DNA of 57,973 bases, from NCBI GenBank assembly GCA_035945995.1, contig DASYZR010000135.1, positions 1 to 57,973 of the forward strand. The letters run 5' to 3'. Positions 28,779 to 57,973 of the stretch are shown piece by piece (the stretch's first letter is position 1; each line of letters begins with the position of its first letter). The notes under the pieces were generated by a model. The model was not told where the DNA came from. It saw only the letters and a list, made by a program, of their open reading frames with translations, and did no database searches. Both the position numbers and the translations under genes were made by a program. This DNA is from a bacterium (GTDB taxonomy: Bacteria > Sysuimicrobiota > Sysuimicrobiia > Sysuimicrobiales > Segetimicrobiaceae).

Positions 28779-29876
28779 ATGACGCAGGATACCATCTTTG
28801 TTGGGTTGGATGTGCATAAATCGTCGATCAATGTCGCTGCAGCGGATCGCGACGGTGAAGTACGGTCTTTGGGAGCTGTAGCGAACAGCCCTGAAGCTGT
28901 GGCGAAGCTGGTGAAGCGCTTAGGTCCTGCCTCGCGGCTGTCCGCGTGCTATGAAGCGGGGCCATGTGGCTATGTGGTGGCCCGTCAGCTCAACCGGCTT
29001 GGTGCAGCGTGTGTCGTGGTGGCTCCCAGTTTGATTCCCCGCAAGCCGGGCGATCGCGTGAAAAATGATCGCCGCGATGCCGTCAAGCTGGCACGGTTAC
29101 TGCGCAGCGGTGACCTGACTCCAGTATGGATCCCTGATGAAGCCCACGAGGCGTTGCGGGATCTCAGTCGCGCGCGGGGGCACGCCTCTATCGATGTCTT
29201 GCGTCACCGCAATCAATTGGGCAAGTTCCTGCTGCGCCTCGGCGTCCGCGCTCCAGAGGAAGGCCGCGCATGGGGCAAAGCGCACCGGGCCTGGCTCCAG
29301 TCCCTGCATGTCCCGCACGCGAGTCAGCAGGTCGTGCTTCGCGATTACCTCGCCACGATCGACCAGGCCGAGCAGCGCTTGGAGAACCTGGAAGCTGAGC
29401 TTACCTTGCTGGCGGCGCAGACCCCTCACGCGCCGCTGATTGCCGCGCTTCAAGCTCTGCGGGGCGTGGATGTGCTGACGGGGGTCACATTGGTGGCTGA
29501 ACTGGGCGACTTGCGGCGGTTCCCCTCGCCGCGCGATCTCATGGGCTACACGGGCTTGGTGCCGAGCGAGGATTCCTCTGGGGAGCGGCGCTGGCGTGGG
29601 CACATTACCAAGACCGGCAATGCCCATATCCGCCACGCGCTGATCCAAGCCGCCTGGCACTATCGCCATCCGCCGGGCGTGTGGGGCGCGCTCAAGAAGC
29701 GCCAAGCGGGCCTTCCCCCCACGGTCCTCGCCATCAGTCGGACCGCCCAGCAGCGCCTTCATCGGCGGTTCCGCCGGCTCGTGTATCGGGGCAAACTGCC
29801 TCAGGTCGCTGCCGTGGCCGTCGCGCGGGAGTTGGTGGAGTTTATTTGGGCGGTCGCGCAGGCGATTCCGGCCTAG
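28779..29876 (+). CDS. IS110-family transposase (DEDD recombinase)
   Basis: A 365-residue transposase. The RuvC-like N-terminal domain carries the DEDD residues D11 (GLDVHK), E59 (CYEAGP), D97 and D100 (KNDRRD). The C-terminal Tnp_20 domain has LRGVDVLTGVTLVAELGD and LMGYTGLVPSEDSSGERRW, which holds the expected catalytic serine, then GHITKTGNAHIRHALIQAAW. It appears intact. IS110 enzymes work with a bridge RNA that pairs with donor and target DNA. GAGGAGG precedes the ATG. Confidence 0.92.
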   Translation: MTQDTIFVGLDVHKSSINVAAADRDGEVRSLGAVANSPEAVAKLVKRLGPASRLSACYEAGPCGYVVARQLNRLGAACVVVAPSLIPRKPGDRVKNDRRDAVKLARLLRSGDLTPVWIPDEAHEALRDLSRARGHASIDVLRHRNQLGKFLLRLGVRAPEEGRAWGKAHRAWLQSLHVPHASQQVVLRDYLATIDQAEQRLENLEAELTLLAAQTPHAPLIAALQALRGVDVLTGVTLVAELGDLRRFPSPRDLMGYTGLVPSEDSSGERRWRGHITKTGNAHIRHALIQAAWHYRHPPGVWGALKKRQAGLPPTVLAISRTAQQRLHRRFRRLVYRGKLPQVAAVAVARELVEFIWAVAQAIPA

Positions 29877-37906: not shown

Positions 37907-38869
37907 ATGGAATTTCAGCCCGTCGATTCTCTCAAACTCCCACGGTTCGCCGGCATCCCAACGTTCTTTCGCCTGCCCCATATCGAGGATCCGCGGGGTC
38001 TCGACGTGGCCATCTTCGGCGTGCCCTTTGATGGTGGACAAAGCTATCGCACGGGGTCACGGTTCGCCCCGGCGGAGGTTCGCCGGATGTCTGCAGCCGT
38101 AATCAAACCGTTCCATCCCTCCTTCAATGTGAGTCCGTATGATGTCCTTAAGATCGCGGACCTCGGCGACAGTCCGATCAATCCTCTCGACCCGGCAGTG
38201 TCGAGACAGTTGATCCAAGACACGGTCGCAAAGATTGTGGACGCCGGCGTACTGCCGGTCGCCGTGGGCGGCGACCACTCGATCTCCCTGCCGATCTTGC
38301 GTGCCGCTGCCAAGACTCACGGTCCTTTGGGACTGATTCAGGTGGACTCGCATGTGGATACTGGAGATGAATACTTCGGGAGCAAGTACGGCAACGGAAC
38401 ACCCTTCCGCCGAGCCGTGGAAGAGGGCCTGATCGATCCGCGAAAGTGGGCGCAGATTGGCATCCGTGGTCCTGTGTACGGAGACGAGGAGTTCAGTTTC
38501 ATTCGCGAGCACGGGGTTCGGAGCCTAACCATGGATGAGGTTTCAAGAAATGGGCTCGACTGGGTGGCGCAGCAACTGGTCTGGCTGAAAGACACCAAGT
38601 GTTATGTCACGTTCGACATCGACGCGATCGACATCGCGTTTGCCCCGGCCACGACATCGCCCGTCCCCGGGGGGCTGACAAGCCGTGAAGCACTCGTGTT
38701 GATGAGGCATCTTGTCGACTTTCCATCCATCGTGGGATTTGATCTTGTCGAGGTCCAACCCATGTATGATGTGGCCAGCATCACCTCAATCCTTGCTTCA
38801 CTGCTTATTTTTGAGTTTCTCTGCACTCGGGCCGTCGTTCGTCGTGACGACGGTCGGCGCGTCAGGTGA
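37907..38869 (+). CDS. Ureohydrolase (agmatinase/arginase family)
   Basis: A 320-residue binuclear metal hydrolase that cleaves guanidino compounds to urea and an amine. Metal ligands are visible: H124 (GGDHS), D147/H149/D151 (DSHVD), D237/D239 (FDID). VEVQPMYD near the end is the family motif VE.NP.YD. The usual DPAFAPGTGTPEPGG segment is altered to DIAFAPATTSPVPGG, which borders the substrate pocket, so the substrate may be guanidinobutyrate, guanidinopropionate or another compound. AAGGAGG precedes the ATG. It follows the opine-type permeases, which fits import and deguanidination. Confidence 0.88.
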   Translation: MEFQPVDSLKLPRFAGIPTFFRLPHIEDPRGLDVAIFGVPFDGGQSYRTGSRFAPAEVRRMSAAVIKPFHPSFNVSPYDVLKIADLGDSPINPLDPAVSRQLIQDTVAKIVDAGVLPVAVGGDHSISLPILRAAAKTHGPLGLIQVDSHVDTGDEYFGSKYGNGTPFRRAVEEGLIDPRKWAQIGIRGPVYGDEEFSFIREHGVRSLTMDEVSRNGLDWVAQQLVWLKDTKCYVTFDIDAIDIAFAPATTSPVPGGLTSREALVLMRHLVDFPSIVGFDLVEVQPMYDVASITSILASLLIFEFLCTRAVVRRDDGRRVR

Positions 38870-44860: not shown

Positions 44861-45106
44861 TTGTCAGAAGCGATTGTCACAGTGGAGGATGAAAAGTTGT
44901 TCACTGAGGAGCCGGAGATTGAGTTGGCGGCCTGGCTGGTTGACGACGGGTCGACCGTGGCTGAAGGACAGCCGATCGCCCAGGTCATGACGGCCAAAGT
45001 CACGGTGGAGGTCCCGGCGCCCGCCGCGGGTCGTCTCCGGATCGAGTGCCAACCTGGTCAGCTGCTTCGCCGTGGTGGCCGGCTCGGGGTGATTATCAGT
45101 GAGTGA
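44861..45106 (+). CDS. Free-standing lipoyl-domain carrier protein (operon B)
   Basis: An 81-residue single lipoyl barrel, paralogue of 31991: EEPEIELAAWLVDDGSTVAEGQPIAQ, the turn VMTAKVTVEV with K46, and APAAGRLRIECQPGQLLRRGG. The TTG at 44861 after CTGGGGGA matches the TTG start of the operon A copy; a GTG at 44795 is the alternative. The 8-bp overlap with the E1 alpha start is also the same, which shows that the whole three-gene module was duplicated as a unit. Confidence 0.83.
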   Translation: MSEAIVTVEDEKLFTEEPEIELAAWLVDDGSTVAEGQPIAQVMTAKVTVEVPAPAAGRLRIECQPGQLLRRGGRLGVIISE

Positions 45107-46094
45107 CGCGACGCTGCTACGGGCGGAGTGGCTGCCACGGTACGGCGCCCAGGCGTGGGGCTTGATGTCTCTCATTCGAGAGATCGAGAACCGGCTTGCG
45201 GGGTACTTGCAACGCGGCTATATCCGTGGATCGACGCACCCCTCTGTCGGCATGGAAGCCGTCGCGGTCGGCGTCAGTCTCAATTTGCAAGCAGCGGACC
45301 TGATTACGAGCACCCATCGCGGCCACGGGCATTGTCTTGCCAAAGGGGCCGAGCCGGAACGTGTGCTGGCCGAACTGTTCGGGCGCTCGTCCGGGTACTG
45401 CGGGGGCAAAGGCGGCTCAATGCATTTGGCGGCCCGTGAACTCGGCATCCTAGGCACGAACGGGATCGTGGGTGCGAGCGTGGGCTTGGCCACCGGAGCC
45501 GCGCTGGCCGCGCGACAGCGAGCGACGGGACGGGTTGCGGCCGCATACTTCGGCGAAGGCGGGATCAACCAAGGAATCTTCCACGAGGCGCTCAATCTCG
45601 CGGCGATCTGGAAGCTCCCGTGTATTTACGTGTGTGAGAACAATCACTACGCCCAATCGTCGCCGGTGGAAGAAATGGCGAGCGTGCGGGACCTGTCCAT
45701 CCGCGCGCACGCGTACGGGATTCCTGGCGTGAACGTCGACGGCATGGACGTCTACGCGGTCTGGACGGCGGCCCACGAGGCAGTGGCGCGCGCTCAGCGT
45801 GGCGAGGGTCCCACGCTAATTATCGCCGACACCTATCGATTTCTCGGACACATGGTGGGTGATACCGAGATGTATCGATCGGCGACGGAGCGCGATTCGT
45901 GGAAAGGACGGGATCCAATCACGCGACTAGAGACCGAGCTCATTAACGCCGGCGTCGCAAGCGACCGGTCGCTCAACGAGATGCAGGGTGCCATTGCCGC
46001 GTGCGTAGACGTCGCGGAGAGGAACGCGTTGGCCGCCCCCGAGCCGGCGCCAGAGGAAGCGTATCAAGGGGTCTATGGAGGCGTCTCGCCGTGA
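45099..46094 (+). CDS. 2-oxoacid dehydrogenase E1 component, alpha subunit (operon B)
   Basis: The 331-residue paralogue of 32226 has the same motifs: STHRGHGHCLAKG, GGKGGSMHLA, FGEGGINQG (residues 151-159) and CENN (179-182). It too has GEG in place of the usual GDG at the Mg-binding position. GTG start. Its substrate probably differs from that of the operon A enzyme, since each copy travels with its own importer, aminotransferase and regulator. Confidence 0.9.
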   Translation: MSDATLLRAEWLPRYGAQAWGLMSLIREIENRLAGYLQRGYIRGSTHPSVGMEAVAVGVSLNLQAADLITSTHRGHGHCLAKGAEPERVLAELFGRSSGYCGGKGGSMHLAARELGILGTNGIVGASVGLATGAALAARQRATGRVAAAYFGEGGINQGIFHEALNLAAIWKLPCIYVCENNHYAQSSPVEEMASVRDLSIRAHAYGIPGVNVDGMDVYAVWTAAHEAVARAQRGEGPTLIIADTYRFLGHMVGDTEMYRSATERDSWKGRDPITRLETELINAGVASDRSLNEMQGAIAACVDVAERNALAAPEPAPEEAYQGVYGGVSP

Positions 46095-47101
46095 ACGAGA
46101 CCTTGCTCTGGCGCGCTCTCAACGAGAGCCTGCGGTCCATCCTGGCCGAGGACGACCGGGTCTTCGTCATGGGCGAGGACCTGTCCCGGTGGGGGTCGGG
46201 CGGCGGCATCTACGGGGTGACGCGCGGGCTGCTGGCTGAATTCGGGCCCGATCGCGTTCGAGAAACCCCAATCAGTGAAGAGGGCATTTTGGCCGCGGCG
46301 GTGGGCGCGGCGCTCGGCGGCTGCCGGCCAGTTGTGGAAATCATGTACTCTGATTTCTCGCTGCTCGGGTTTGATCCGATTGTCAATCAAGCTGCGAAAA
46401 TTCGGTACATGTTCGGAGGCCAGTTTGATGTCCCGCTCGTGGTTCGGACACCGACGGGGTGGGCGCCCGGAAAGGCCGCCCAGCATACCCAGTCGCTCGA
46501 CACCCTCTTTGCCCATATCCCGGGGCTCGAGGTGGTCGTCCCATCCACCCCGGACGACGCGTACGGGCTCCTTCGGTCCGCCGTCGCCAGTCCAAACCCC
46601 ACGATTTTCCTCGAGCACAAGCAGCTGTACAACGTCCGTGGCCCGCTCACAAGAAGCGCAACGCCGCTTGGGAAGGCCAACATCATCCGGAGCGGGCAAG
46701 ACGCGACGGTCGTGGCGACGCAGTTCATGGTGCATCGCAGCCTCAGCGTGGCCGATCGAATGCGCGCCGAGGGCGTCGAACTCGAAATCGTGGACCTGCG
46801 CACGCTGTATCCCCTTGATCTGGAGACCGTGATCGCATCTGCGCGCAAGACGCGGCATGCGCTGGTGTGCCATGAAGCACCGCTGCTCTATGGCTTCGGC
46901 GGCGAGCTCGCATCGGCGATCTCCGCCGCCTGCTGGCGCGATCTCGACGCGCCGGTCCAACGCGTGGGCGGGGCCAGAGCGCCGATGCCCTATGCGGCGG
47001 CGCTCGAGAAGGAAGTGATTCCGTCGGAAGCCACGATCGAAGCCGGCATACGCGCGGTCCTCCGCGAGGGACGCGGCGAGCAGATGTCGATCAGCGGCTG
47101 A
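46091..47101 (+). CDS. 2-oxoacid dehydrogenase E1 component, beta subunit (operon B)
   Basis: A 336-residue paralogue of 33221 with RETPISEEGILAAAVGAAL (E63), the His in QHTQSLDTLFAHIPGL, and the C-terminal transketolase-like domain. The GTG at 46091 overlaps the E1 alpha stop (GTGA), as in operon A; the longer open frame upstream is a shadow of E1 alpha. It completes the E1 tetramer that would load the free lipoyl carrier. Confidence 0.9.
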   Translation: MNETLLWRALNESLRSILAEDDRVFVMGEDLSRWGSGGGIYGVTRGLLAEFGPDRVRETPISEEGILAAAVGAALGGCRPVVEIMYSDFSLLGFDPIVNQAAKIRYMFGGQFDVPLVVRTPTGWAPGKAAQHTQSLDTLFAHIPGLEVVVPSTPDDAYGLLRSAVASPNPTIFLEHKQLYNVRGPLTRSATPLGKANIIRSGQDATVVATQFMVHRSLSVADRMRAEGVELEIVDLRTLYPLDLETVIASARKTRHALVCHEAPLLYGFGGELASAISAACWRDLDAPVQRVGGARAPMPYAAALEKEVIPSEATIEAGIRAVLREGRGEQMSISG

Positions 47102-47159: not shown

Positions 47160-48377
47160 ATGAAACCTGATACGGCCCTGGCACACGCCGGCGGGGACCC
47201 GCAGAACCGCTTCGGCATTGTGAATCCACCGGTGTATCGAGCGTCGACCGTGCTCTTTCGCACCGTGGAGGATTTCGAACGGCGGGCGGAGCGCAAGTAC
47301 ACGGGGTTTTGGTATGGCACGCATGGCACGCCAACCACGTTCGCGCTGACCGAGGCACTCGCCGAGCTCTCGGGCGGCCACAAGTCGCTTGTCACATCGT
47401 CTGGTCTCTCCGCGATCGCGCAAGCCCTGACCGCGTTCCTTCGGCAAGGGGACCACGTGTTGGTGGCGGACAGCGTCTATGGCCCGACTCGCCTTTTCTG
47501 CACCTCGGTGCTGGCGCGCTTCGGCGTTGACGTGACGTTCTATGATCCGGATGCTGGCTTGGAAATCGCCGCGCTCATGCGGCCGACCACCAAAGTGGTC
47601 TACGCGGAAGCCCCAGGGTCCCTGACATTCGACATGCAGGATATACCGGCAATCGCGAAAGTGGCCCACGCGCACGGGGCGGTGCTGATTTTCGACAACA
47701 CGTGGGCCACGCCCCTTAACTTCCGCTCGTTCGATCACGGGGTCGACGTAGAGCTTCAAGCGGCCACTAAATATCTGGCGGGCCACTCAGATCTCCTGCT
47801 CGGCGTAATTACGACTCGATCTGAATGTCTTTTCCGCGCGGTGAGAGACGGCGTAGAAGAATTTGGCGACTGTGTCGCGCCTGATCTTTGCTACGAGACC
47901 CTCCGCGGACTGCGCACATTGGCAGTTCGCCTTCGTCACCACGAACGCTCCGCGATCCAAATCGCAGAGTGGCTCTCGTCGCGGCCCGAGGTGTCCCGCG
48001 TGCTTCACCCGGCACTCCCCAGCGATCGCGGACATGATCTCTGGAAGCGAGACTTCCTTGGCGCTTCAAGTCTATTCGGCGTGCTCCTGCGATCCGAGTC
48101 CGAACCCGCAGCCGCTGCGATGCTTGATGGTCTTCGACTGTTCAAGATCGGTGCCAGCTTCGGCGGATTCGAGAGCCTCATCATCCCTGCGCGTCCGGCA
48201 GAACACCGTACTGCGCGGCCGTGGCGGGAATCGGGGATTCTGCTGCGGCTGCATGTTGGGCTTGAGGCCGTGGAGGATTTAATTCTGGACCTCCAGCACG
48301 GATTCGATCGTCTCAGCGCCCGGTTGCGCGCGGATCGGTCTGGTCCAGCGACGCGCCGAAGTTCGGTCCCTTCCTAA
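47160..48377 (+). CDS. Cys/Met-metabolism PLP enzyme (cystathionine beta-lyase-like)
   Basis: A 405-residue fold-type I PLP enzyme with PVYRASTVLF, YGTHGTPTTFALTEALAELSGG, D179 (VLIFDNTWATP) that pairs with PLP, and the Schiff-base lysine K204 in AATKYLAGHSDLLLG. The overall pattern is closest to proteobacterial MetC. It would break C-S bonds in cystathionine-like or S-alkyl-cysteine substrates, releasing thiol, pyruvate and ammonia. In this cluster, C-S cleavage of a catabolic substrate is more likely than methionine synthesis. GAGGAGAT precedes the ATG. Confidence 0.85.
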   Translation: MKPDTALAHAGGDPQNRFGIVNPPVYRASTVLFRTVEDFERRAERKYTGFWYGTHGTPTTFALTEALAELSGGHKSLVTSSGLSAIAQALTAFLRQGDHVLVADSVYGPTRLFCTSVLARFGVDVTFYDPDAGLEIAALMRPTTKVVYAEAPGSLTFDMQDIPAIAKVAHAHGAVLIFDNTWATPLNFRSFDHGVDVELQAATKYLAGHSDLLLGVITTRSECLFRAVRDGVEEFGDCVAPDLCYETLRGLRTLAVRLRHHERSAIQIAEWLSSRPEVSRVLHPALPSDRGHDLWKRDFLGASSLFGVLLRSESEPAAAAMLDGLRLFKIGASFGGFESLIIPARPAEHRTARPWRESGILLRLHVGLEAVEDLILDLQHGFDRLSARLRADRSGPATRRSSVPS

Positions 48378-48491: not shown

Positions 48492-48932
48492 ATGGCACTT
48501 GTTGATCGTCTGGACCATATCGTGCTCACCGTCCGAGACATCGAGGCAACCTGCGCCTTCTACTCTAACGTGCTTGGGATGAGGCCTGTCGTGTTCGATG
48601 GAGATCACTGGGCGCTGCATTTTGGTTCTCAAAAAATCAACTTGCATAGGACAGGCCACGAATTCGAACCGAAAGCCGAGCGTGCGACCCCGGGGGCGGC
48701 CGATTTGTGCTTCATCACTCTCACCCAAATGGATGTCGTCGTAGCGCATCTCCAAGCCCATCAGGTCAGGGTAATTGAGGGACCCGGACCCCAGGTCGGC
48801 GCCATCGGGCAGCTCACCTCTGTATATTTCCACGACCCTGACGGAAACCTAATCGAGATCTCCAATTACGACCAACCAAACATGGTCACAGAATCTTGCA
48901 ACGCTCGATCAAGGGAGTCGGGAGCGCAGTGA
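48492..48932 (+). CDS. VOC-family (glyoxalase/dioxygenase-like) protein
   Basis: This 146-residue two-repeat VOC protein contains DRLDHIVLTVRDIEATCAFYSNVLGM with the N-terminal metal His, HWALHFGSQKINLH, and YFHDPDGNLIEISNY with the metal Glu. Such small VOC proteins isomerise, hydrolyse or cleave small metabolites. GAGGAGG precedes the ATG. Its stop overlaps the lipoyl synthase start (TGATG), so it is coupled to lipA. Confidence 0.8.
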   Translation: MALVDRLDHIVLTVRDIEATCAFYSNVLGMRPVVFDGDHWALHFGSQKINLHRTGHEFEPKAERATPGAADLCFITLTQMDVVVAHLQAHQVRVIEGPGPQVGAIGQLTSVYFHDPDGNLIEISNYDQPNMVTESCNARSRESGAQ

Positions 48933-49867
48933 TGGGGGGCATGCCACATGATGGGCACGAATCCCCGCGCGCCTACGTAGGAGACGCGGCGAGCGGTGCG
49001 CGGCGACGACACCCAGAGTGGTTGAAAGTAAGGCTTCCGACCGGCCCGTACTTCCGCGAGTTAGTCGCGATCGTGCGTACGCAGGCGCTGCACACCGTCT
49101 GCGAGGAGGCGCGCTGTCCCAACATCGGCGATTGTTGGAACCGCCGGACGGCGACCTTCCTGATCCTCGGCAACGTGTGCACGCGGCATTGCGCGTACTG
49201 TGCGATCGCGCATGGACTGCCGGCTGAACTGGATCTGCAGGAGCCAGTCCGCGTCGCAGAGGCGGTCGAGAAGATGGGCCTCCGGCATGCGGTCATCACT
49301 TCCGTAGACCGTGATGATCTGGCCGATGGTGGAGCTGGAATATTCGCGGCGACGATCCAAGCGATCCGCAAGCGCACGCCGCGTTGCTCTGTCGAAGTGT
49401 TGATTCCAGACTTCAAGGGCCATCATACTGCTCTTCGCACCGTTCTCACCGCTGAGCCGGACATTGTGAACCATAACATTGAGACGGTGCCGCGATTGTT
49501 CCGCGCCGTGCGTGTCGGTGGCAACTACCGGCGCTCGCTCGACCTTCTGGCCCGGGCAAAGACATGGGGACGACGTGGCCTTACGAAAAGCGGCATAATG
49601 GTTGGCCTCGGTGAAACGCGCGACGAGGTGCGTTCGACCATGCGCGATTTGCGCGAGGTCGGCTGCGACATTCTAACTATCGGACAGTACTTGCGGCCGG
49701 GCAAGGACTACTTACCGGTCGTTCGTCACTATGACCCGCGCGAGTTTGCCTTGTTCAAAGTCGAAGGACTTGAGATGGGGTTCCGCTATGTCGAGTCGGG
49801 GCCGCTCGTCCGCAGCAGCTATCACGCCGACGAACAAGCGGCGGCGATCGGACGTGAGGGGCAATAG
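48932..49867 (+). CDS. lipA: Lipoyl synthase
   Basis: A 311-residue radical SAM enzyme that inserts two sulfurs into octanoyl groups on lipoyl domains. The auxiliary cluster cysteines are C57, C62 and C68 (CEEARCPNIGDC), the radical SAM cysteines are C83, C87 and C90 (CTRHCAYC), and the conserved RSSYHA motif is near the C-terminus. A lipA inside the catabolic operon, with two free lipoyl carriers upstream, suggests dedicated lipoylation of those proteins. No octanoyltransferase gene is in the window. The ATG at 48932 overlaps the VOC stop. Confidence 0.93.
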   Translation: MGGMPHDGHESPRAYVGDAASGARRRHPEWLKVRLPTGPYFRELVAIVRTQALHTVCEEARCPNIGDCWNRRTATFLILGNVCTRHCAYCAIAHGLPAELDLQEPVRVAEAVEKMGLRHAVITSVDRDDLADGGAGIFAATIQAIRKRTPRCSVEVLIPDFKGHHTALRTVLTAEPDIVNHNIETVPRLFRAVRVGGNYRRSLDLLARAKTWGRRGLTKSGIMVGLGETRDEVRSTMRDLREVGCDILTIGQYLRPGKDYLPVVRHYDPREFALFKVEGLEMGFRYVESGPLVRSSYHADEQAAAIGREGQ

Positions 49868-49871
49868 ACGT

Positions 49872-51473
49872 ATGAGAGCCTCGACGGCGACCGGTGGAGC
49901 CGAAGTACGCGCGCCGATTGGTGACCGGTTTCCCGAAGTCCTGACGCGCGAAGCCGTGGAGTTCGTCCTCGCGCTGCACCGCGAGTTCGACGAACGCCGC
50001 CGCGCGCTGCTCGCCAGGCGCGCTGAGCGCTGTGCGGAGATCGCCGCCGGACGCCTTCCGGATTTTCTCCCTGAGACGCGCGCGATCCGAGAGGCCGCGT
50101 GGAGCGTGGCTCCCGTACCGCGCGATCTCGAGGACCGCCGGGTCGAGATCACCGGGCCGGCCGATCGGAAGATGATCATCAACGCCCTCAACTCGGGGGC
50201 GAGCACCTTTATGGCGGACTTCGAGGACGCCAACGCCCCGACGTGGGACAACGTCATCGACGGTCACGTAAACATCATGGACGCCGTCCGCCGGACGATC
50301 GCCTACACCGGGCCGGACGGCAAAGCGTACCGGCTCGGCGAAGAGACCGCCACGCTGATCGTGCGGCCGCGCGGCTGGCACCTGCCGGAGACCCACGTGT
50401 ACTTCGACGGACGGCCGGCTTCCGGCAGCCTGGTCGACTTCGGTCTGTATGTGTTTCACAACGCCCAGGCGCTGCTCGATCGCGGCACCGGCCCGTACTT
50501 CTACCTGCCCAAACTGGAGAGTCATCTCGAGGCGCGGCTCTGGAACGACGTCTTTGCGTTCGCCGAGGAGGCGCTCAGGATTCCGCGAGCGAGTATCCGA
50601 GCCACGGTGCTGGTCGAGCATATTCTCGTCGCGTTCGAGATGGAAGAGATCTTGTACGAACTCCGCGACCGCTCGGCGGGGCTCAACGCCGGCCGGTGGG
50701 ACTACATTTACAGCATCATCAAGACGTTCCGCGAGCGGCCGGAGTTCGTGCTGCCCGACCGGTCGCAGGTCACGATGACCGTGCCGTTCATGCGCGCGTA
50801 CACCGAGCTGCTGGTCAGCACCTGCCATCGCCGCGGCGCGTACGCGGTCGGCGGGATGGCGGCGTACATTCCGACGCGCCGCAATTCCGAGGTCAATCGC
50901 CAGGCGCTCGCCAAGGTCCGCGACGACAAGATCCGCGAGGCGACGGACGGGTTCGACGGCACGTGGGTGGCGCACCCCGGGCTCGTGGACGAGGCGATGC
51001 GCGCGTTCGACGGCGTGCTCGCGGGGCGCCGGCAGCAGCTTGCGCGGACGCGGGACGACGTGCGCGTTGCAGCGCGCGACCTGCTCGACGTGCGCGTGCC
51101 GGGCGGAACGATCACGGACGCCGGCCTGCGGACGAACGTACGGGTCGGCATCGAGTATCTCGAATCATGGCTGCGCGGCACGGGCGCCGCGGCGCTGTAC
51201 AATCTGATGGAGGACGCCGCCACCGCCGAAATCGCGAGATCGCAGATCTGGCAGTGGGTCCGCCACAGCGCGCACCTAGACGACGGCCGGCCCGTGGCCG
51301 CGCGCCTCGTGCGGGCGGTGGCCGACGACGAACTGCAACGGATCCGGCAGTATCTCGGCCACGCGTTCGACCTCCGCCGCTTCGGGGAGGCGCGGGCGAT
51401 CTTCGAGCGTGTCGCCCTCACCGACCCGTTCGTGGAGTTTCTGACGATTCCGGCGTACGAGCATCTCGCGTGA
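49872..51473 (+). CDS. aceB: Malate synthase (form A)
   Basis: At 533 residues this is the size of malate synthase A, which condenses glyoxylate with acetyl-CoA to malate. Recognised blocks are [53 protein letters not shown], the active-site segment [20 protein letters not shown] and [14 protein letters not shown]. The ATG at 49872 lies 4 bp after the lipA stop and gives the correct length. Codon use is much more GC-rich than that of the surrounding genes, like the left flank of the window. Confidence 0.93.
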
Positions 51474-51490
51474 CCCAGGAGGGCAAGGCG

Positions 51491-52834
51491 ATGGTGAACG
51501 AGGTCAGCACGCGGATCGACGAACAGGCGGCGATTCTGGCGCGACGTTGGGCCGCCGACCGCCGGTGGGGGGGCATCCGCCGGCCGTATGACGCCCGCGA
51601 CGTGGTCCGCCTGCGCGGCTCGGTGGACGTGCAGTACAGTCTTGCCGCAGCGGGCGCGGCGCGCCTGTGGCACCTTCTCCACACCGAGGAGTACGTGCCG
51701 GCGCTCGGTGCGTTGACCGGCAACCAGGCGGTGCAGATCGTCCGAGCCGGCGTGCGGGCGATCTATTTGAGCGGCTGGCAGGTGGCCGCCGACAACAATT
51801 TGGCCGGCGAGATGTATCCCGACCTCAGCCTCTATCCGGCGACCAGCGCGCCGTCCCTCGTGCGGCAGATCAACAACGCCCTGCGCCGCGCTGATCAAAT
51901 CGAGTGGGCGGAGGGTCGGCTGCGCCGCGATTGGCTGGCGCCGATCGTCGCCGACGCAGAGGCCGGCTTCGGCGGGCCGCTCAATGCCTTCGAGCTGATG
52001 AAACAGATGATCGAGGCCGGCGCCGCCGGCGTGCACTTCGAAGACCAGCTCGCTTCTGAGAAGAAATGCGGCCACATGGGCGGCAAAGTGCTCGTGCCCA
52101 CAGCCCAATTCGTGCGGACCCTCACCGCGGCGCGTCTCGCCGCTGACGTGTTCGGCGTGCCGGCTGTGCTGATCGCGCGGACCGACGCGTTGGGCGCGAC
52201 CCTGCTCACGAGCGACATCGATCCAGAGGACGGACGGTTCCTCACGGGCGAACGGACGCCGGAGGGCTACCACATCGTGACCCCCGGCCTCGACGCGGCA
52301 ATCGCGCGGTCGCGAGCCTACGCGCCGTACGCCGATCTGTTGTGGTTCGAGACGGCCCGGCCGGACCTCGCGGAGGCCCGCCGGTTCGCCGAGGCGGTGC
52401 ACCGCGACTTCCCGGGCAAGCTCCTCGCCTACAACTGCTCGCCTTCCTTCAACTGGAAGCGTCATCTCGACGACGCGACGATCGCCAGCTTCCAGCGCGA
52501 GCTCGCGACGATGGGCTACAAGTTTCAGTTCATCACGCTCGCGGGATTCCACGCGCTCAACGCGTCGATGTTCGAGCTGGCGCGCGGATACGCCGAGGCG
52601 GGCATGCCCGCATTCGTGCAGCTGCAGGACCACGAGTTTACGCTGGAGCGGCACGGCTACACTGCGACGCGCCACCAGCGCGAAGTCGGCGCTGGCTACT
52701 TCGACGCGGTGTCCGAAGTGATCGCGGGCGGGGCCAGTTCGACGCTTGCGCTGCGCGGGTCGACGGAAGAGGAGCAGTTCTCGGCCGACGATGCCGCCGC
52801 AGCGGAGGCCACGGTCGAGGCTGGCGAGGAGTAG
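51491..52834 (+). CDS. aceA: Isocitrate lyase
   Basis: The 447-residue enzyme splits isocitrate to glyoxylate and succinate. The signature K191-K-C-G-H195 with catalytic C193, followed by MGGKVLVPT, is intact; [23 protein letters not shown] and DAEAGFGG are also conserved. CAGGAGGG stands 6 nt before the ATG. With malate synthase it forms a complete glyoxylate shunt for growth on acetyl-CoA. The longer open frame upstream is a shadow of malate synthase. Composition is GC-rich, unlike the flanking catabolic genes. Confidence 0.94.
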
Positions 52835-52948
52835 CAATGAGCGGCCCAACTTCCACCCGACCGTCCCTTGGACATCGAATCCCACGACATTGAGCAGGCA
52901 GTCGGGGGATCCGCAATCGACACAACGAGTCGGTCTGAGGAGCTCGGT

Positions 52949-54145
52949 ATGAGAGTTACCGATATCGAGACACTCTCTTGCGATGCGGGGTGGAGAAACT
53001 ACCACTTCGTCAAACTGACCACGGACGCGGGGATCGTAGGCTGGAGCGAATTCGATGAGTGGTACGGGTCTCCGGGCGTCACAACTGTCATCGAACATCT
53101 CGCCGGGCGCGTAAAGGGACAGCCCGTCATGGCCCACGAGCGAATTCATGCCGAGCTCTACGCCGCTACCCGGATGGCGAATCGGGGCGTCGTGGGTGAG
53201 GGCATCGGGGCCATCGAGAACGCTCTATTAGATGCAAAAGCAAAAGCGTTACAGGTGCCCTGCTATCAGCTCCTGGGTGGCAAGCTGCGCGACCGCGTCC
53301 GCCTCTATTGGTCACACTGCGCGACGTGGCACATTCTGCATCCGCGATTCTACCCGCCGGCGATCACAAACTTAGAGGGTACCGAAGCCACCGCGGAGCA
53401 AGTCCGAGCGCGGCGCTTCACCGCATTGAAAACGAATATGTTCATATACGAGCAGGGGTCGGTCCGCGGCTGGCATCCCGGATTTGCGCACCCGTTCGTG
53501 CCCGAACTCACCGTAGACAAGACGGTAAGGCGAAATCTGCGAGCCCATCTGGAGGCCCTTCGGTCCGGTGCCGGACCGGACATTGAAATCCTGCTCGACC
53601 TCAACTTCAATGCAAAAACTGCAGGTTATCTCGAGATCCTCAGCGATGTTGCGGATCTCGATCTATCGTGGGTCGAAATTGATACCTACAGCCCCAAAGC
53701 GCTTGCGTATATCCGCGCTCGCAGTGCCCACCCTGTGGCGTCCTGTGAGACGCTGTTCGGACTTCGTGACTTTCTGCCGTACTTCCACGAACACGCGATG
53801 GACATCGCTATCGTCGACGCGGTGTGGAACGGAGCATGGCAGACGATGAAGATTTCGGCTGCCGCCGAGGCGTACGAAACGAATGTGGCGCTGCACAACT
53901 TCTACGGTCACTTGAGCACCATGATCAACGGTCACATCGGCGCAGCTATCCCGAATCTCCACATCCTTGAGTATGACGGCGATCGACTGTCGTGGGATGC
54001 GGAGCTGTTCACACATGTGCCGGAAATCGACGACGGCCACCTCATCGTCCCGGATAGGCCGGGGTGGGGCACCGAGCCGAACGAAGACGCGATCCGACGT
54101 CGTCCACCCCAAGCGCGGTCCGGCACGATGACCATCAGCACCTAG
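52949..54145 (+). CDS. Enolase-superfamily (mandelate racemase/muconate lactonizing type) enzyme
   Basis: A 398-residue two-domain enzyme. The N-terminal capping domain runs to about residue 115; in the barrel, K161 (ALKTNMF) is the likely base, with metal ligands D217 (LLDLNFN), E243 (VEIDTYS) and E267 (SCETLFG). It would abstract a proton next to a carboxylate for dehydration, racemisation or cycloisomerisation. Its neighbours suggest a substrate in the same pathway as the urocanase-like protein. GAGGAGCT precedes the ATG at 52949. Confidence 0.85.
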   Translation: MRVTDIETLSCDAGWRNYHFVKLTTDAGIVGWSEFDEWYGSPGVTTVIEHLAGRVKGQPVMAHERIHAELYAATRMANRGVVGEGIGAIENALLDAKAKALQVPCYQLLGGKLRDRVRLYWSHCATWHILHPRFYPPAITNLEGTEATAEQVRARRFTALKTNMFIYEQGSVRGWHPGFAHPFVPELTVDKTVRRNLRAHLEALRSGAGPDIEILLDLNFNAKTAGYLEILSDVADLDLSWVEIDTYSPKALAYIRARSAHPVASCETLFGLRDFLPYFHEHAMDIAIVDAVWNGAWQTMKISAAAEAYETNVALHNFYGHLSTMINGHIGAAIPNLHILEYDGDRLSWDAELFTHVPEIDDGHLIVPDRPGWGTEPNEDAIRRRPPQARSGTMTIST

Positions 54146-54161: not shown

Positions 54162-55820
54162 ATGACTCTGTCGCGGCAGATTACGGTCCAGACCGGCGCT
54201 CGGCTCCGCTGCAAAGGGTGGCGGCAAGAATCCATCCTGCGTTTGCTCGAGAACAACCTCGTAAACGCCGAACGTCCCGAGGATCTCGTCGTGTACGGGG
54301 GTGGATCCAAGGCTGCACGGGACTGGGAGAGTCTCGATAAGATCGTACGCTCTCTCCACTGCCTGGAGACCTGCGAGACACTCGTCATTCAGTCCGGGAA
54401 ACCCATTGGCATTTTTGAGACGGGGGAGAACGCCCCTCTCGTTATCATGTCAAACGGGACAACCATTACTGCGACCCAGGAGGAGATAGCGAACTTACGG
54501 CGACGTAATCTCACGATTCACCCGGGCATGACCGCGGCCGCATGGCAGTACATCGGCAGCCAGGGGATCATCCAGGGCACGTACGAGACCTTTATGGCCG
54601 CTGCGCGGCGATTCTTTGGTGGGAGCCTGGTGGGCCGAACTATTCTCACGGCAGGCTCGGGTGGCATGGGCGGTGCTCAACCTCTGGCCGGCGTACTGGC
54701 AGGCGCTGCAATTCTCGTCGCAGACGTTCGCCTCGATCGTTTGGCCCGCCGCGCGCGAGAAGGGTATCTCGAGCGACTCGCGCCGACGGTGCCGGAAGCT
54801 GTTCGCCTGTGGATGTTGGCTGCCCGGGAGCGTAGAGCTGCCTCGATCGGCGTCGCTGCCAACATCGTGGACGTGCTGGAGCATTTCGAGCGTCACAGCA
54901 TCGTTCCGAACATCGCCACGGATCAGACGACACCGGATCCATTGTTGGGCTATGTCCCTGCCGGCATCAGCGGGGAAGAGTGTGATCGTCTCGCATGGAC
55001 GGATCCCGGGAAATTGATCGACCTAGCGGGAGCGACGCTGGCTCGGCACGTTCAGGGCTTGTTGGCACTAATGCGCAAAGGGACGGTCGTGTTTGAGTAC
55101 GGCAACGGCTTGCGCGAGCGCGCTCTGGCCAACGGGGTTGCGAACGCGTTTGATATCCCCGGATTCGTTGATCTGTTCATTCGCCCCATGTTCTGCGAAG
55201 GGATCGGCCCGTTCCGTTTCATCGCGATCGAAGGCCATCCCGACACAATCTTCCGAATCGACGAAGCGTTGATGGAGATGTTTCGGGACGTGCCGCGGAT
55301 TACGGAGTGGCTCACGAAGGCATCCCGTGTCAAGTTCACAGGGTTGCCCGCTCGAGTCTGCTGGCTTGGGCACGGAGAGCGCACGGAAGCCGCGCTGGCC
55401 GTGAACGATCTCATCGAAAAGGGGGACATCGCCGGCCCAGTGGCGTTGACTCGAGATCATCTGGACTCTGGAAGTGTCACGTGCCGCTTTCGTGAGACGG
55501 AGAACATGCGGGATGGTAGCGATTGCATCGCCGATTGGCCGATTCTGAACGGTCTGCTGGACGCCATCGCGGGAGCCGATCTCGTCGCGATACACGAGGC
55601 CTACGGACGTTCGCTAAACGCGGGCCCCACGGTCATCGCGGATGGAACGGCGCACGCTCGGGAGCGCATCCGACGCGTGATGCACGCAGATACGGGGCTC
55701 GGCGTGCTCCGCCATGCCGATGCGGGGTACGAGACCGCCATTGCCGCCCGGAATCGGCATCAGCTTGGGCTCGACGTACGATTGGCCAGACATGACGACA
55801 CGCCCACGACTCCGCAGTGA
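54162..55820 (+). CDS. Urocanase-family hydratase with altered active-site loop
   Basis: The 552-residue protein matches urocanate hydratase in length and domains: YGGGSKAARDWE, MTAAAWQYIGSQGIIQGTYE, NAD-binding GSGGMGGAQPL (165-175), and ARVCWLGHGER with the family cysteine. After ADLVAIH (H478) the usual glycine-rich HHGGGVGMG...H loop is replaced by a shorter EAYGRSLNAG (479-488). Ordinary urocanate may not be the substrate. S-methyl-thiourocanate hydratases are urocanase relatives, and the next gene is DUF917/S-methyl-thiohydantoin desulfurase-like, so an S-methylated imidazole acrylate is a reasonable candidate. No hutH, hutI or hutG is nearby. Confidence 0.85.
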   Translation: MTLSRQITVQTGARLRCKGWRQESILRLLENNLVNAERPEDLVVYGGGSKAARDWESLDKIVRSLHCLETCETLVIQSGKPIGIFETGENAPLVIMSNGTTITATQEEIANLRRRNLTIHPGMTAAAWQYIGSQGIIQGTYETFMAAARRFFGGSLVGRTILTAGSGGMGGAQPLAGVLAGAAILVADVRLDRLARRAREGYLERLAPTVPEAVRLWMLAARERRAASIGVAANIVDVLEHFERHSIVPNIATDQTTPDPLLGYVPAGISGEECDRLAWTDPGKLIDLAGATLARHVQGLLALMRKGTVVFEYGNGLRERALANGVANAFDIPGFVDLFIRPMFCEGIGPFRFIAIEGHPDTIFRIDEALMEMFRDVPRITEWLTKASRVKFTGLPARVCWLGHGERTEAALAVNDLIEKGDIAGPVALTRDHLDSGSVTCRFRETENMRDGSDCIADWPILNGLLDAIAGADLVAIHEAYGRSLNAGPTVIADGTAHARERIRRVMHADTGLGVLRHADAGYETAIAARNRHQLGLDVRLARHDDTPTTPQ

Positions 55821-56971
55821 GAACGCTAACGACTGGAGATGTTGAGGCTGCCGTGTACGGGGGCCTCGTGTTGGGGGCCGGAGGGGGAGGCCTCGAGGAG
55901 GGCCTACGGCAGGCTCAAATGGTGCTTGAGTTTGGCCAGCCAAGGCTGGCGGATCTGGATGATTTCGAGGACGGCGACTTGGCGATCGTGACGACCGGCG
56001 TTGGTGCTCCCGGAGGGCACACAAGCAGTGTCTTTCCGAGGGACCGGCTGCGCGCCTTCGAGTTGATCCGCGCGGCCATCGCCCAACGCGAGGACACCCG
56101 AAACGGGAGACTCGTCGGCACAGTGATGGGGCACCCGAGTGCGCGTGTGGCGACGTCGTGGCTGCACGCTGCGCTTGACCCGAACATTGTGGTACTCGAT
56201 TGCGCGACGAACGGTCGCGGCCACCCGTCCGTGCGGATGGGCGGAATGGGATTGGCTTCGCGCCTCGACGTTGCGATCTTCCAAGCGGCAGTGGGCGGCA
56301 CCCTCGCTGACCGCGGTCGCATGGAATTGGTGGTCTGGGGGCCGCTTGCGTTGACGTCCGATGTCGTCAGACGCGCTTCCGATGTGCTGGGCGGAGGCAT
56401 CTCCGCGTGTCGAGGTCCGGTTTCAATTGGCTTCTTGCGCACGGCCGCAGCCGTCGGTTCGGTCAGCATGAGCATTCATCTTGGCCGAGCGATGATCGCC
56501 GCGCTCGGTCGGGGACCCGACGCGTTCATTGACGCGATCGTGTCGACGCTGAACGCGAACGTTGTGCTGGCGGGATTGGTGACGGAGCAGACCGTTCGCC
56601 TCCGGGGAGCGTACGACGTCGGTTGCGTCGTGGTGGCGGACGGCGGCCACGTCGCAGAGCTTGGCGTGGTGAACGAGTTCCTCACGCTCGATGTCGACGG
56701 AATTCGAATGTCGTCCTTCCCCGACCTGATCGTGCTTCTATCGCAGAAGGACGGTATGCCCATCGGCATTACTGCGTTGAAGCGCGGGGACCCGGTGATT
56801 ATTGTCACCGTCCCGCATGCTTCGATACCACTTGGCGCGGGCGTGTGGGACGTACAAGCCTACCGAGGGGTGGAGGAACTGCTCGATCGCGAGTTGGTTC
56901 CTCCCGCATGTCGACGAGATTCGGCGGCGGATGGTCACGCAGAAGGCACAGAAAGCGCTCGCCGATCTTAG
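55817..56971 (+). CDS. DUF917 family protein (S-methyl-thiohydantoin desulfurase type)
   Basis: A 384-residue protein of the DUF917 family: YGGLVLGAGGGGLEEGL near the N-terminus, IVTTGVGAPGGHTSSVFPRD, a mid-protein CATNGRGHPSVRMGGMGL, and a C-terminal beta-rich domain with FPDLIVLLSQKDGMPIGITALKRGDPVIIVTVPH. The family is linked to hydantoin metabolism and includes enzymes that remove methanethiol from S-methyl-thiohydantoins. Its ATG overlaps the urocanase-like stop by 4 bp, so the two steps are tightly coupled, as expected if it acts on the hydratase product. Confidence 0.8.
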   Translation: MRTLTTGDVEAAVYGGLVLGAGGGGLEEGLRQAQMVLEFGQPRLADLDDFEDGDLAIVTTGVGAPGGHTSSVFPRDRLRAFELIRAAIAQREDTRNGRLVGTVMGHPSARVATSWLHAALDPNIVVLDCATNGRGHPSVRMGGMGLASRLDVAIFQAAVGGTLADRGRMELVVWGPLALTSDVVRRASDVLGGGISACRGPVSIGFLRTAAAVGSVSMSIHLGRAMIAALGRGPDAFIDAIVSTLNANVVLAGLVTEQTVRLRGAYDVGCVVVADGGHVAELGVVNEFLTLDVDGIRMSSFPDLIVLLSQKDGMPIGITALKRGDPVIIVTVPHASIPLGAGVWDVQAYRGVEELLDRELVPPACRRDSAADGHAEGTESARRS

Positions 56972-56992: not shown

Positions 56993-57805
56993 ATGATACC
57001 GCCTCATGCGATTCCTGGGCCGTCTTCGTCTTCGGCGCGTCCAGCCGAGGCAGGAGTGAGGCCCTCGAGGATGCGAGCGATTATTGCCCGGCGCATGCTC
57101 GACAGTCTCAAATCAACCGCCCAATTGACTTTGACGACTGAAGTGAATATGGAGGAGGCCGCCCGACTGCGAACCGAGGTCGGACCGGAACTCGCGCGAC
57201 GTCACGGCATTCACCTCACCTATACCGACCTCATCGTTCGGGCGGCAGCATTGGCGCTGCGGGCGCATCCTCGTCTGAACGCACGATGGGAAGACGAGGG
57301 GATCCGGCGCCTTCCGGACATCCATGTCGGGTTTGCCGTGGCGCTCGACGAAGGACTCATCGTCCCCGTGGTGCGCCACACCGATCACGCGACGCTCCAG
57401 CAAATTTCCGCGTCGATTCGCGACCTTGCCGAACGGGCGCACGCCAATCGACTGCGGCCGGAAGAGGTACGCGGCGGCACGTTCACGGTCACAAACCTCG
57501 GCATCTACGACGTTGACGCGTTTACGCCGATTCTTAATCCACCCGAGGCCGGCATTCTGGGGGTAGGCCGAGTGCGCCGGTGCGCCGTCGTCGCGGCCGA
57601 GCAGATTGCCCCAAAGCTGACAATGGTATTGTCTTTGACGTTCGACCACCGGATTGTAGATGGAGCACCGGCTGCACAATTCTTGCAACACGTCAAATCG
57701 ATTCTTGAACGTCCGTATTTGCTGCTTCTTCCGCCGACTCCAGGATCTCAAGTGCCAACACCGGAGCATCACTCGTCCAGGACGGGCGTCGCACAGTCCG
57801 GGTGA
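56993..57805 (+). CDS. 2-oxoacid dehydrogenase E2 acyltransferase core lacking lipoyl and binding domains
   Basis: A 270-residue E2 that consists only of the catalytic domain: MRAIIARRMLDSLKSTAQLT (start of the core), TFTVTNLGIYDVDAFTPILN, and the active site FDHRIVDG with H219 and D223. Usual E2 proteins have one or more lipoyl domains and a peripheral-subunit-binding domain before this; here about 25 linker-like residues precede the core. The free lipoyl proteins at 31991 and 44861 probably supply the missing domain in trans. AGAGGAG is present 14-20 nt upstream of the ATG. Confidence 0.88.
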   Translation: MIPPHAIPGPSSSSARPAEAGVRPSRMRAIIARRMLDSLKSTAQLTLTTEVNMEEAARLRTEVGPELARRHGIHLTYTDLIVRAAALALRAHPRLNARWEDEGIRRLPDIHVGFAVALDEGLIVPVVRHTDHATLQQISASIRDLAERAHANRLRPEEVRGGTFTVTNLGIYDVDAFTPILNPPEAGILGVGRVRRCAVVAAEQIAPKLTMVLSLTFDHRIVDGAPAAQFLQHVKSILERPYLLLLPPTPGSQVPTPEHHSSRTGVAQSG

Positions 57806-57973
57806 CCTGGACCGCGTCAACGTCGCGGCCGGAACTTCGGGGCGCGGCAGTCTCGGATGAGGACATCGAATACTACCTGTCTTATCTAGACGATCAAAAC
57901 ACAAAACATGGACTGGTAGAGTTACCGCAATGGCTCCTGCGTTCGTTGTGGCGTTCGGAACCGCGCGGTGTCC
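57802..57973 (+). CDS. Start of an unidentified gene, cut by the window end
   Basis: A GTG overlapping the E2 stop (GTGA) opens a frame that runs without a stop to the end of the window (VTWTASTSRPELRGAAVSDE, then DIEYYLSYLDDQNTKHGLVE). The overlap matches the coupling style of this operon. At 57 codons nothing is recognisable; a dihydrolipoyl dehydrogenase start would show a GxGxxG motif by now, and none is seen. Confidence 0.4.
   Translation, partial: MTWTASTSRPELRGAAVSDEDIEYYLSYLDDQNTKHGLVELPQWLLRSLWRSEPRGV

Follow-up and report, generated by a model that had tools for sequence, protein, structure and literature searches.

A divergent urocanase-DUF917 gene pair related to the S-methylthiourocanate hydratase and S-methylthiohydantoin desulfurase module

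Results

An overlapping urocanase-DUF917 pair

Near the end of the window, by which we mean the whole 57,973-nt stretch of DNA that was analysed, two overlapping genes lie on the forward strand. The first (54162..55820, +) encodes a complete urocanase of 552 aa, in which the Pfam domains Urocanase_N, Urocanase and Urocanase_C all score far above their cut-offs, and which Pfam, NCBIfam, Foldseek and a phylogenetic tree place as a hydratase of a short-loop clade that resembles S-methylthiourocanate hydratase. The NAD loop (GSGGMGGAQPLAG) and the CWLGHGER motif (residues 400-407) are kept. Directly after the conserved His478 the protein carries EAYGRSLNAG (residues 479-488; codons at 55596..55625, +), the counterpart of the C-terminal glycine loop that in canonical urocanases (HutU) reads HHGGGVG[IM]GxSxHAG, and it is 4 residues shorter there (alignment of 115 urocanases). 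These features, as well as the overlap with the next gene, had been pointed out in a preliminary description of this DNA, and the alignment, the Pfam search and a direct reading of the sequence bear them out: the urocanase stop codon TGA (55818-55820) overlaps, through the shared string GTGA, the GTG start (55817-55819) of a gene encoding a 384-aa protein of the DUF917/S-Me-THD family (55817..56971, +; Pfam S-Me-THD_N/_C, PF20906/PF06032, together with NCBIfam and Foldseek matches). Both reading frames are intact.

The AlphaFold model of the hydratase (mean pLDDT 88.9) has as its top Foldseek matches 8q9u/8q9v (TM 0.94-0.97, 53% identity), the S-methylthiourocanate hydratase of Variovorax sp. 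RA8, whereas the sole confident match of the DUF917 model (pLDDT 87.8) is the structural-genomics entry 2o3i, which is also found by the DUF917 sequence profile. Most strictly conserved residues are retained; the hydratase sits on a long branch in the tree, and several residues conserved across the family are changed in it (N116, N250, F353, T362 and R442).

The short loop marks a clade linked to DUF917

A scan of named genomes yielded 80 urocanase loci. The 4-residue loop deletion was common to 21 sequences, PDB 8q9v included, and in these the segment PG-TAA-WQYIG replaces the HutU segment GQMTAGSWIYIG. When a tree was built without the loop columns, a single branch set the 21 sequences apart (SH-aLRT 93, good although short of the 95 that the tool stars) from 28 HutU proteins and the thiourocanate hydratase 7ned, so that the phylogenetic check suggested in the preliminary description groups the window protein with 8q9v and apart from true urocanases. 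DUF917 genes occurred near the short-loop urocanase in 16/19 loci (the exceptions being L035, L037 and L063), as compared with 0/47 HutU loci with 3 kb or more of flanking sequence on each side (p about 1e-12, Fisher).

Because the loop-sharing sequences group together even without the loop columns, and because of this difference in DUF917 linkage, the deletion is not a chance event. As the clade holds 8q9v, and the fold search ranks 8q9u/8q9v first, sequence comparison indicates that the short loop is a clade mark of S-methyl-type enzymes and no defect. Reading the loop as a substrate signature, as had been proposed earlier, is reasonable for the clade as a whole; the exact C2 substituent is not assignable from sequence. 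Two Burkholderiales MAGs (L035 and L037) have a short-loop hydratase adjoining genes that resemble the window's ABC transporter ATPase, in loci without DUF917, an arrangement that possibly represents a further functional split inside the clade.

The two proteins diverged together with those of an Actinomycetes MAG

Among the NCBIfam models, the hydratase scored best against NF058531 (S-methyl thiourocanate hydratase; 745 bits, below the cut-off of 880), followed by NF058530 (thiourocanate hydratase; 611 bits, cut-off 930). Likewise, the best model for the DUF917 protein was NF058532 (S-methyl thiohydantoin desulfurase; 302 bits, below the cut-off of 450) and the second best NF058529 (thiohydantoin desulfurase; 250 bits, cut-off 440). 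The NF058531 and NF058532 cut-offs were reached by 9/10 of the other short-loop hydratases and 9/10 of the other DUF917 partners sampled, respectively, and in both sets the one that fell short came from the same Actinomycetes MAG, L032 (798 and 301 bits). For each of the two window proteins, the nearest relative is likewise the one from L032 (59% identity for the hydratase and 48% for the DUF917 protein, which is 36-42% identical to the other aligned partners). Since both proteins miss the cut-offs, with the L032 pair being closest and falling short likewise, the hydratase and the desulfurase appear, from these comparisons, to have diverged together within a branch of two known members. We found no closer members among 43 genomes of the organism's own phylum, among samples of some 400 genomes apiece from the phylum and from the order to which the L032 host belongs, or among the plasmids searched. 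The L032 genome carries, separately, a fuller thiourocanate-type cluster with HAL-fold lyases and ErtD-like and ErtE-type enzymes.

The hydratase also passes the cut-off of the hutU model TIGR01228 (610 bits, cut-off 375) and keeps Tyr45, Cys400 and Arg444, as an ordinary urocanase would that acts on plain urocanate while the DUF917 protein does something else. However, this cut-off was passed by all ten other short-loop proteins scanned and is thus not discriminating; moreover, the protein groups away from HutU and is linked to DUF917, and the genome already has a canonical HutU on contig 83 (L004, 6830-8623). We consider it unlikely that the window enzyme is an ordinary urocanase.

Diagnostic residues are mixed

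Position 46 of the hydratase, which adjoins the conserved Tyr45, is Met in 18/19 other short-loop proteins, Gly in the window protein and Ala in that of L032. Position 400 is Gly in 19/19 others and Cys in the window protein, that of L032 and almost every HutU, Gly46 and Cys400 of the window protein both being HutU states. The Pseudomonas putida equivalents of Tyr45 and Cys400 we take to be active-site residues. Conversely, P121, G122, A126, A127 and Q129, together with the loop deletion, are states of the S-methyl group that differ from those of HutU. In the DUF917 protein, the sequence GHVPG, present in all 14 S-methyl-type partners aligned, has become GHPSA (SHPGA in L032), so that His106 is kept and VPG changed, and the NGRGHP motif is kept as well; the thiohydantoin-type desulfurase of L135 and that of L139, for which the two models give no clear answer, have Ser or Ala in place of His106. 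Some of the unusual substitutions of the window proteins are thus common to L032, and judging by these positions the branch retains some S-methyl-type marks and loses others, a mixture that leaves the C2 group unfixed by sequence.

Compared with known enzymes, the hydratase shares with the Variovorax protein its fold, the loop deletion and the PG-TAA-WQYIG segment, and its Arg444 corresponds to R450 there, but it has Gly rather than Met at 46 and Cys rather than Gly at 400; it also scores below the NF058531 cut-off and resides in a genome without the lyase. With 7ned it has in common Gly122, Gln129 and Ala126/Ala127, whereas 7ned keeps the long loop and reads IMTE where the window protein has RETE. 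HutU proteins resemble it in fold, NAD loop, CWLG motif, Cys400 and Gly46, but they differ in the HHGGGVGxG loop and the GQMTAGSWIYIG segment, fall in a separate clade and have no DUF917 neighbour in the 47 loci. The DUF917 protein, for its part, is like the S-methyl thiohydantoin desulfurases in its best model, His106 and NGRGHP, and unlike them in having HPSA for HVPG.

The joint divergence with L032, the loss of Met46 and Gly400 and the change of HVPG to HPSA or HPGA would also fit a third specificity class, in which the window and L032 pairs carry out the same two reactions on a C2 group other than thio or S-methyl, in an organism that, in the case of the window, has no HAL-family lyase releasing ammonia or trimethylamine. 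The group could be, for example, an S-cysteinyl thioether or another substituent, although any substituent named here is speculation.

Genomic setting of the pair

Directly upstream of the pair lies a gene for an enolase-superfamily (MR/MLE) protein of the 2oo6 family (52946..54145, +; assigned by domain search and relatives), and downstream the catalytic domain of a 2-oxoacid dehydrogenase acyltransferase (E2; 56993..57805, +; PF00198) is encoded by the last gene before the contig stops at 57973, which is also the end of the window. Farther upstream, all on the forward strand, are genes for a lipoyl-domain protein and the E1 alpha and beta subunits of a 2-oxoacid dehydrogenase complex (44864..47101; Pfam), for a member of the MetC-type cystathionine beta-lyase/cysteine-S-conjugate beta-lyase family (47160..48377; TIGR01324, 467 bits, cut-off 366), the PDB matches of which are MetC and cysteine-S-conjugate beta-lyase, and for lipoyl synthase and two proteins of the glyoxylate shunt, malate synthase and a member of the isocitrate lyase family (48896..52834, with approximate starts; Pfam).

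The position of a C-S beta-lyase and pyruvate dehydrogenase-like genes on the same strand is in keeping with the third class, under which they would process the thiol amino acid or the pyruvate that is set free; we infer no more than that the MetC-like lyase might act with the pair. Against this, the upstream genes can be explained in ordinary ways and the class would consist of two members only, and the absence of the C-S lyase and dehydrogenase genes from the L032 contig counts against it further. On balance, a third specificity class seems to us a tentative, rather doubtful proposal.

The MR/MLE gene was considered as a third conserved partner and rejected: a gene of this superfamily lies upstream in L032 too, but the two proteins are only 25% identical, that of L032 is galactonate-dehydratase-like and adjoins an alcohol dehydrogenase-like gene, and the 2oo6 family of the window is found on plasmids without a urocanase (two neighbourhoods read). 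The gene is probably not specific to the pair.

The G+C content is about 70-73% in the first 18 kb of the window and mostly about 57-68% over 18000-57973, and it looks as though the pair is located in an acquired region or the contig is a chimeric MAG contig. An IS110-type transposase lies in the lower-GC part (28779-29876), and the malate synthase and isocitrate lyase genes stand out with a GC3 near 0.86. Such a region, the missing pathway neighbours, the changes at family-wide conserved residues and the long branch might together be read as signs that an S-methyl-ergothioneine cluster was transferred and that the pair is a decaying remnant of it, the substitutions reflecting relaxed selection. 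The frames, however, are both intact and overlapping, most strictly conserved residues are retained and L032 has some of the same unusual changes, and we regard decay as very improbable.

In the segment 32226-44774, another E1 alpha/beta pair is accompanied by ABC transporters of the peptide and amino-acid types, two genes for class IV aminotransferases and one of the arginase family, possibly a cluster for guanidino-acid catabolism. The arginase-family gene (at 37907) was dropped as a candidate formimidoylglutamase, its closest solved relative being 3-guanidinopropionase.

The genome has no detectable HAL-family lyase

The preliminary description had noted that the window holds no trimethylamine-releasing lyase, and a PF00221 search of the whole genome (98.8% complete) agrees, finding no HAL-family (ergothionase-type) lyase, whereas both same-genus genomes searched have one. 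It had also advised looking for pathway genes past position 57,973; the contig ends there, and the rest of the genome offered no HAL lyase and, as candidates below their cut-offs, an ErtD-like gene on contig C88 (493 bits, cut-off 650) and an ErtE-like match (377 bits, cut-off 520), both unlinked to the pair. The ErtD-like gene was rejected as the missing step because it occurs in most same-family genomes without the pair. No gene for GST, for ErtE, the N-carbamoylglutamate hydrolase, or for ErtD, the hydantoin-5-propionate amidohydrolase, adjoins the pair, in contrast to canonical clusters, where they are present. The canonical HutU gene on contig 83 adjoins an aminotransferase and an arginase-family gene, and the lack of a HAL lyase in a genome with HutU reflects either loss or an assembly gap.

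Related clusters on plasmids

The best plasmid matches to the window hydratase are the urocanases of Agrobacterium pAt (L157) and a Lichenihabitans plasmid (L158), where the urocanase homologue likewise occurs with DUF917. Unlike the surroundings of the window pair, these clusters, which are of the S-methyl-ergothioneine type, also encode a GST, a Zn-dependent hydrolase and an amidohydrolase, and L158 a HutH-like lyase; the order is DUF917, GST, Zn hydrolase and urocanase, then a molybdopterin S/N-oxide reductase or the HutH-like lyase, and then the amidohydrolase. A small protein family recurs beside DUF917 in L033, L038, L041, L042, L044, L047 and L050 and in both plasmids, recognised as GST by Pfam in L047 and annotated as such in L157 and L158, and hints that the S-methyl pathway includes a step with glutathione. 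Also recurrent is a molybdopterin oxidoreductase (L033, L034, L042 and L157).

Discussion

The S-methylthiourocanate hydratase/DUF917 desulfurase pair to which these genes are related was already known; what is new is a hydratase-desulfurase branch that has co-diverged, with near-invariant residues altered, in a genome where no lyase was detected. The known chemistry of these families, addressed in work by the Seebeck group, suggests together with the present results that a C2-S-substituted urocanate is hydrated and its C2-S bond then hydrolysed. We think it somewhat probable that the pair represents a divergent sister branch of this module that acts on a C2-S-substituted urocanate, with S-methyl, as far as sequence can suggest, the likeliest substituent. 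The urocanase homologue would add water, in an NAD+-dependent manner, to a urocanate bearing a sulfur substituent on the imidazole C2, giving a C2-substituted imidazolone propionate, and the co-translated DUF917 protein would hydrolyse the C2-S bond to release a thiol (methanethiol, if the substituent is S-methyl) and hydantoin-5-propionate. Given that the genome yielded no ergothionase-like lyase, the organism may import a ready-made urocanate derivative produced by others, and not S-methyl-ergothioneine itself.

The S-methyl-type reading draws on the clade shared with 8q9v, the top fold matches, the residues in common, the best NCBIfam models, the DUF917 linkage and His106, and is weakened by the missed cut-offs, the replacement of Met46 and Gly400, the lack of the lyase and of neighbouring GST, ErtE and ErtD genes, and the two members of the branch. 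The original proposal, that the pair hydrates an S-methylated substrate and removes methanethiol, was in our view largely right in kind: clade, fold and best models favour it, and its details are unproven given the cut-offs and the two changed residues. Its wider setting in S-methyl-ergothioneine breakdown holds for the kinship of hydratase and desulfurase, and not for the starting lyase or the pathway neighbours, which are missing.

Were the branch to use some other C2 group, the substrates of a small and only recently recognised family of urocanase relatives would grow by one, and the residues that determine C2 specificity would come into view. If instead S-methylthiourocanate is the substrate, the two-step module would be used without its lyase, as would fit bacteria that feed on the ergothioneine breakdown products of others. 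One published account cites cross-feeding on thiourocanate (PMC13405746). A HAL-family lyase was absent from 8/19 genomes with a short-loop hydratase (L036, L038, L039, L040, L045, L046, L047 and L048), several of these genomes being drafts or MAGs, and a wider use of ready-made urocanate derivatives is possible; three of the lyase-free hosts (L036, L038 and L040) have a canonical HutU nearby.
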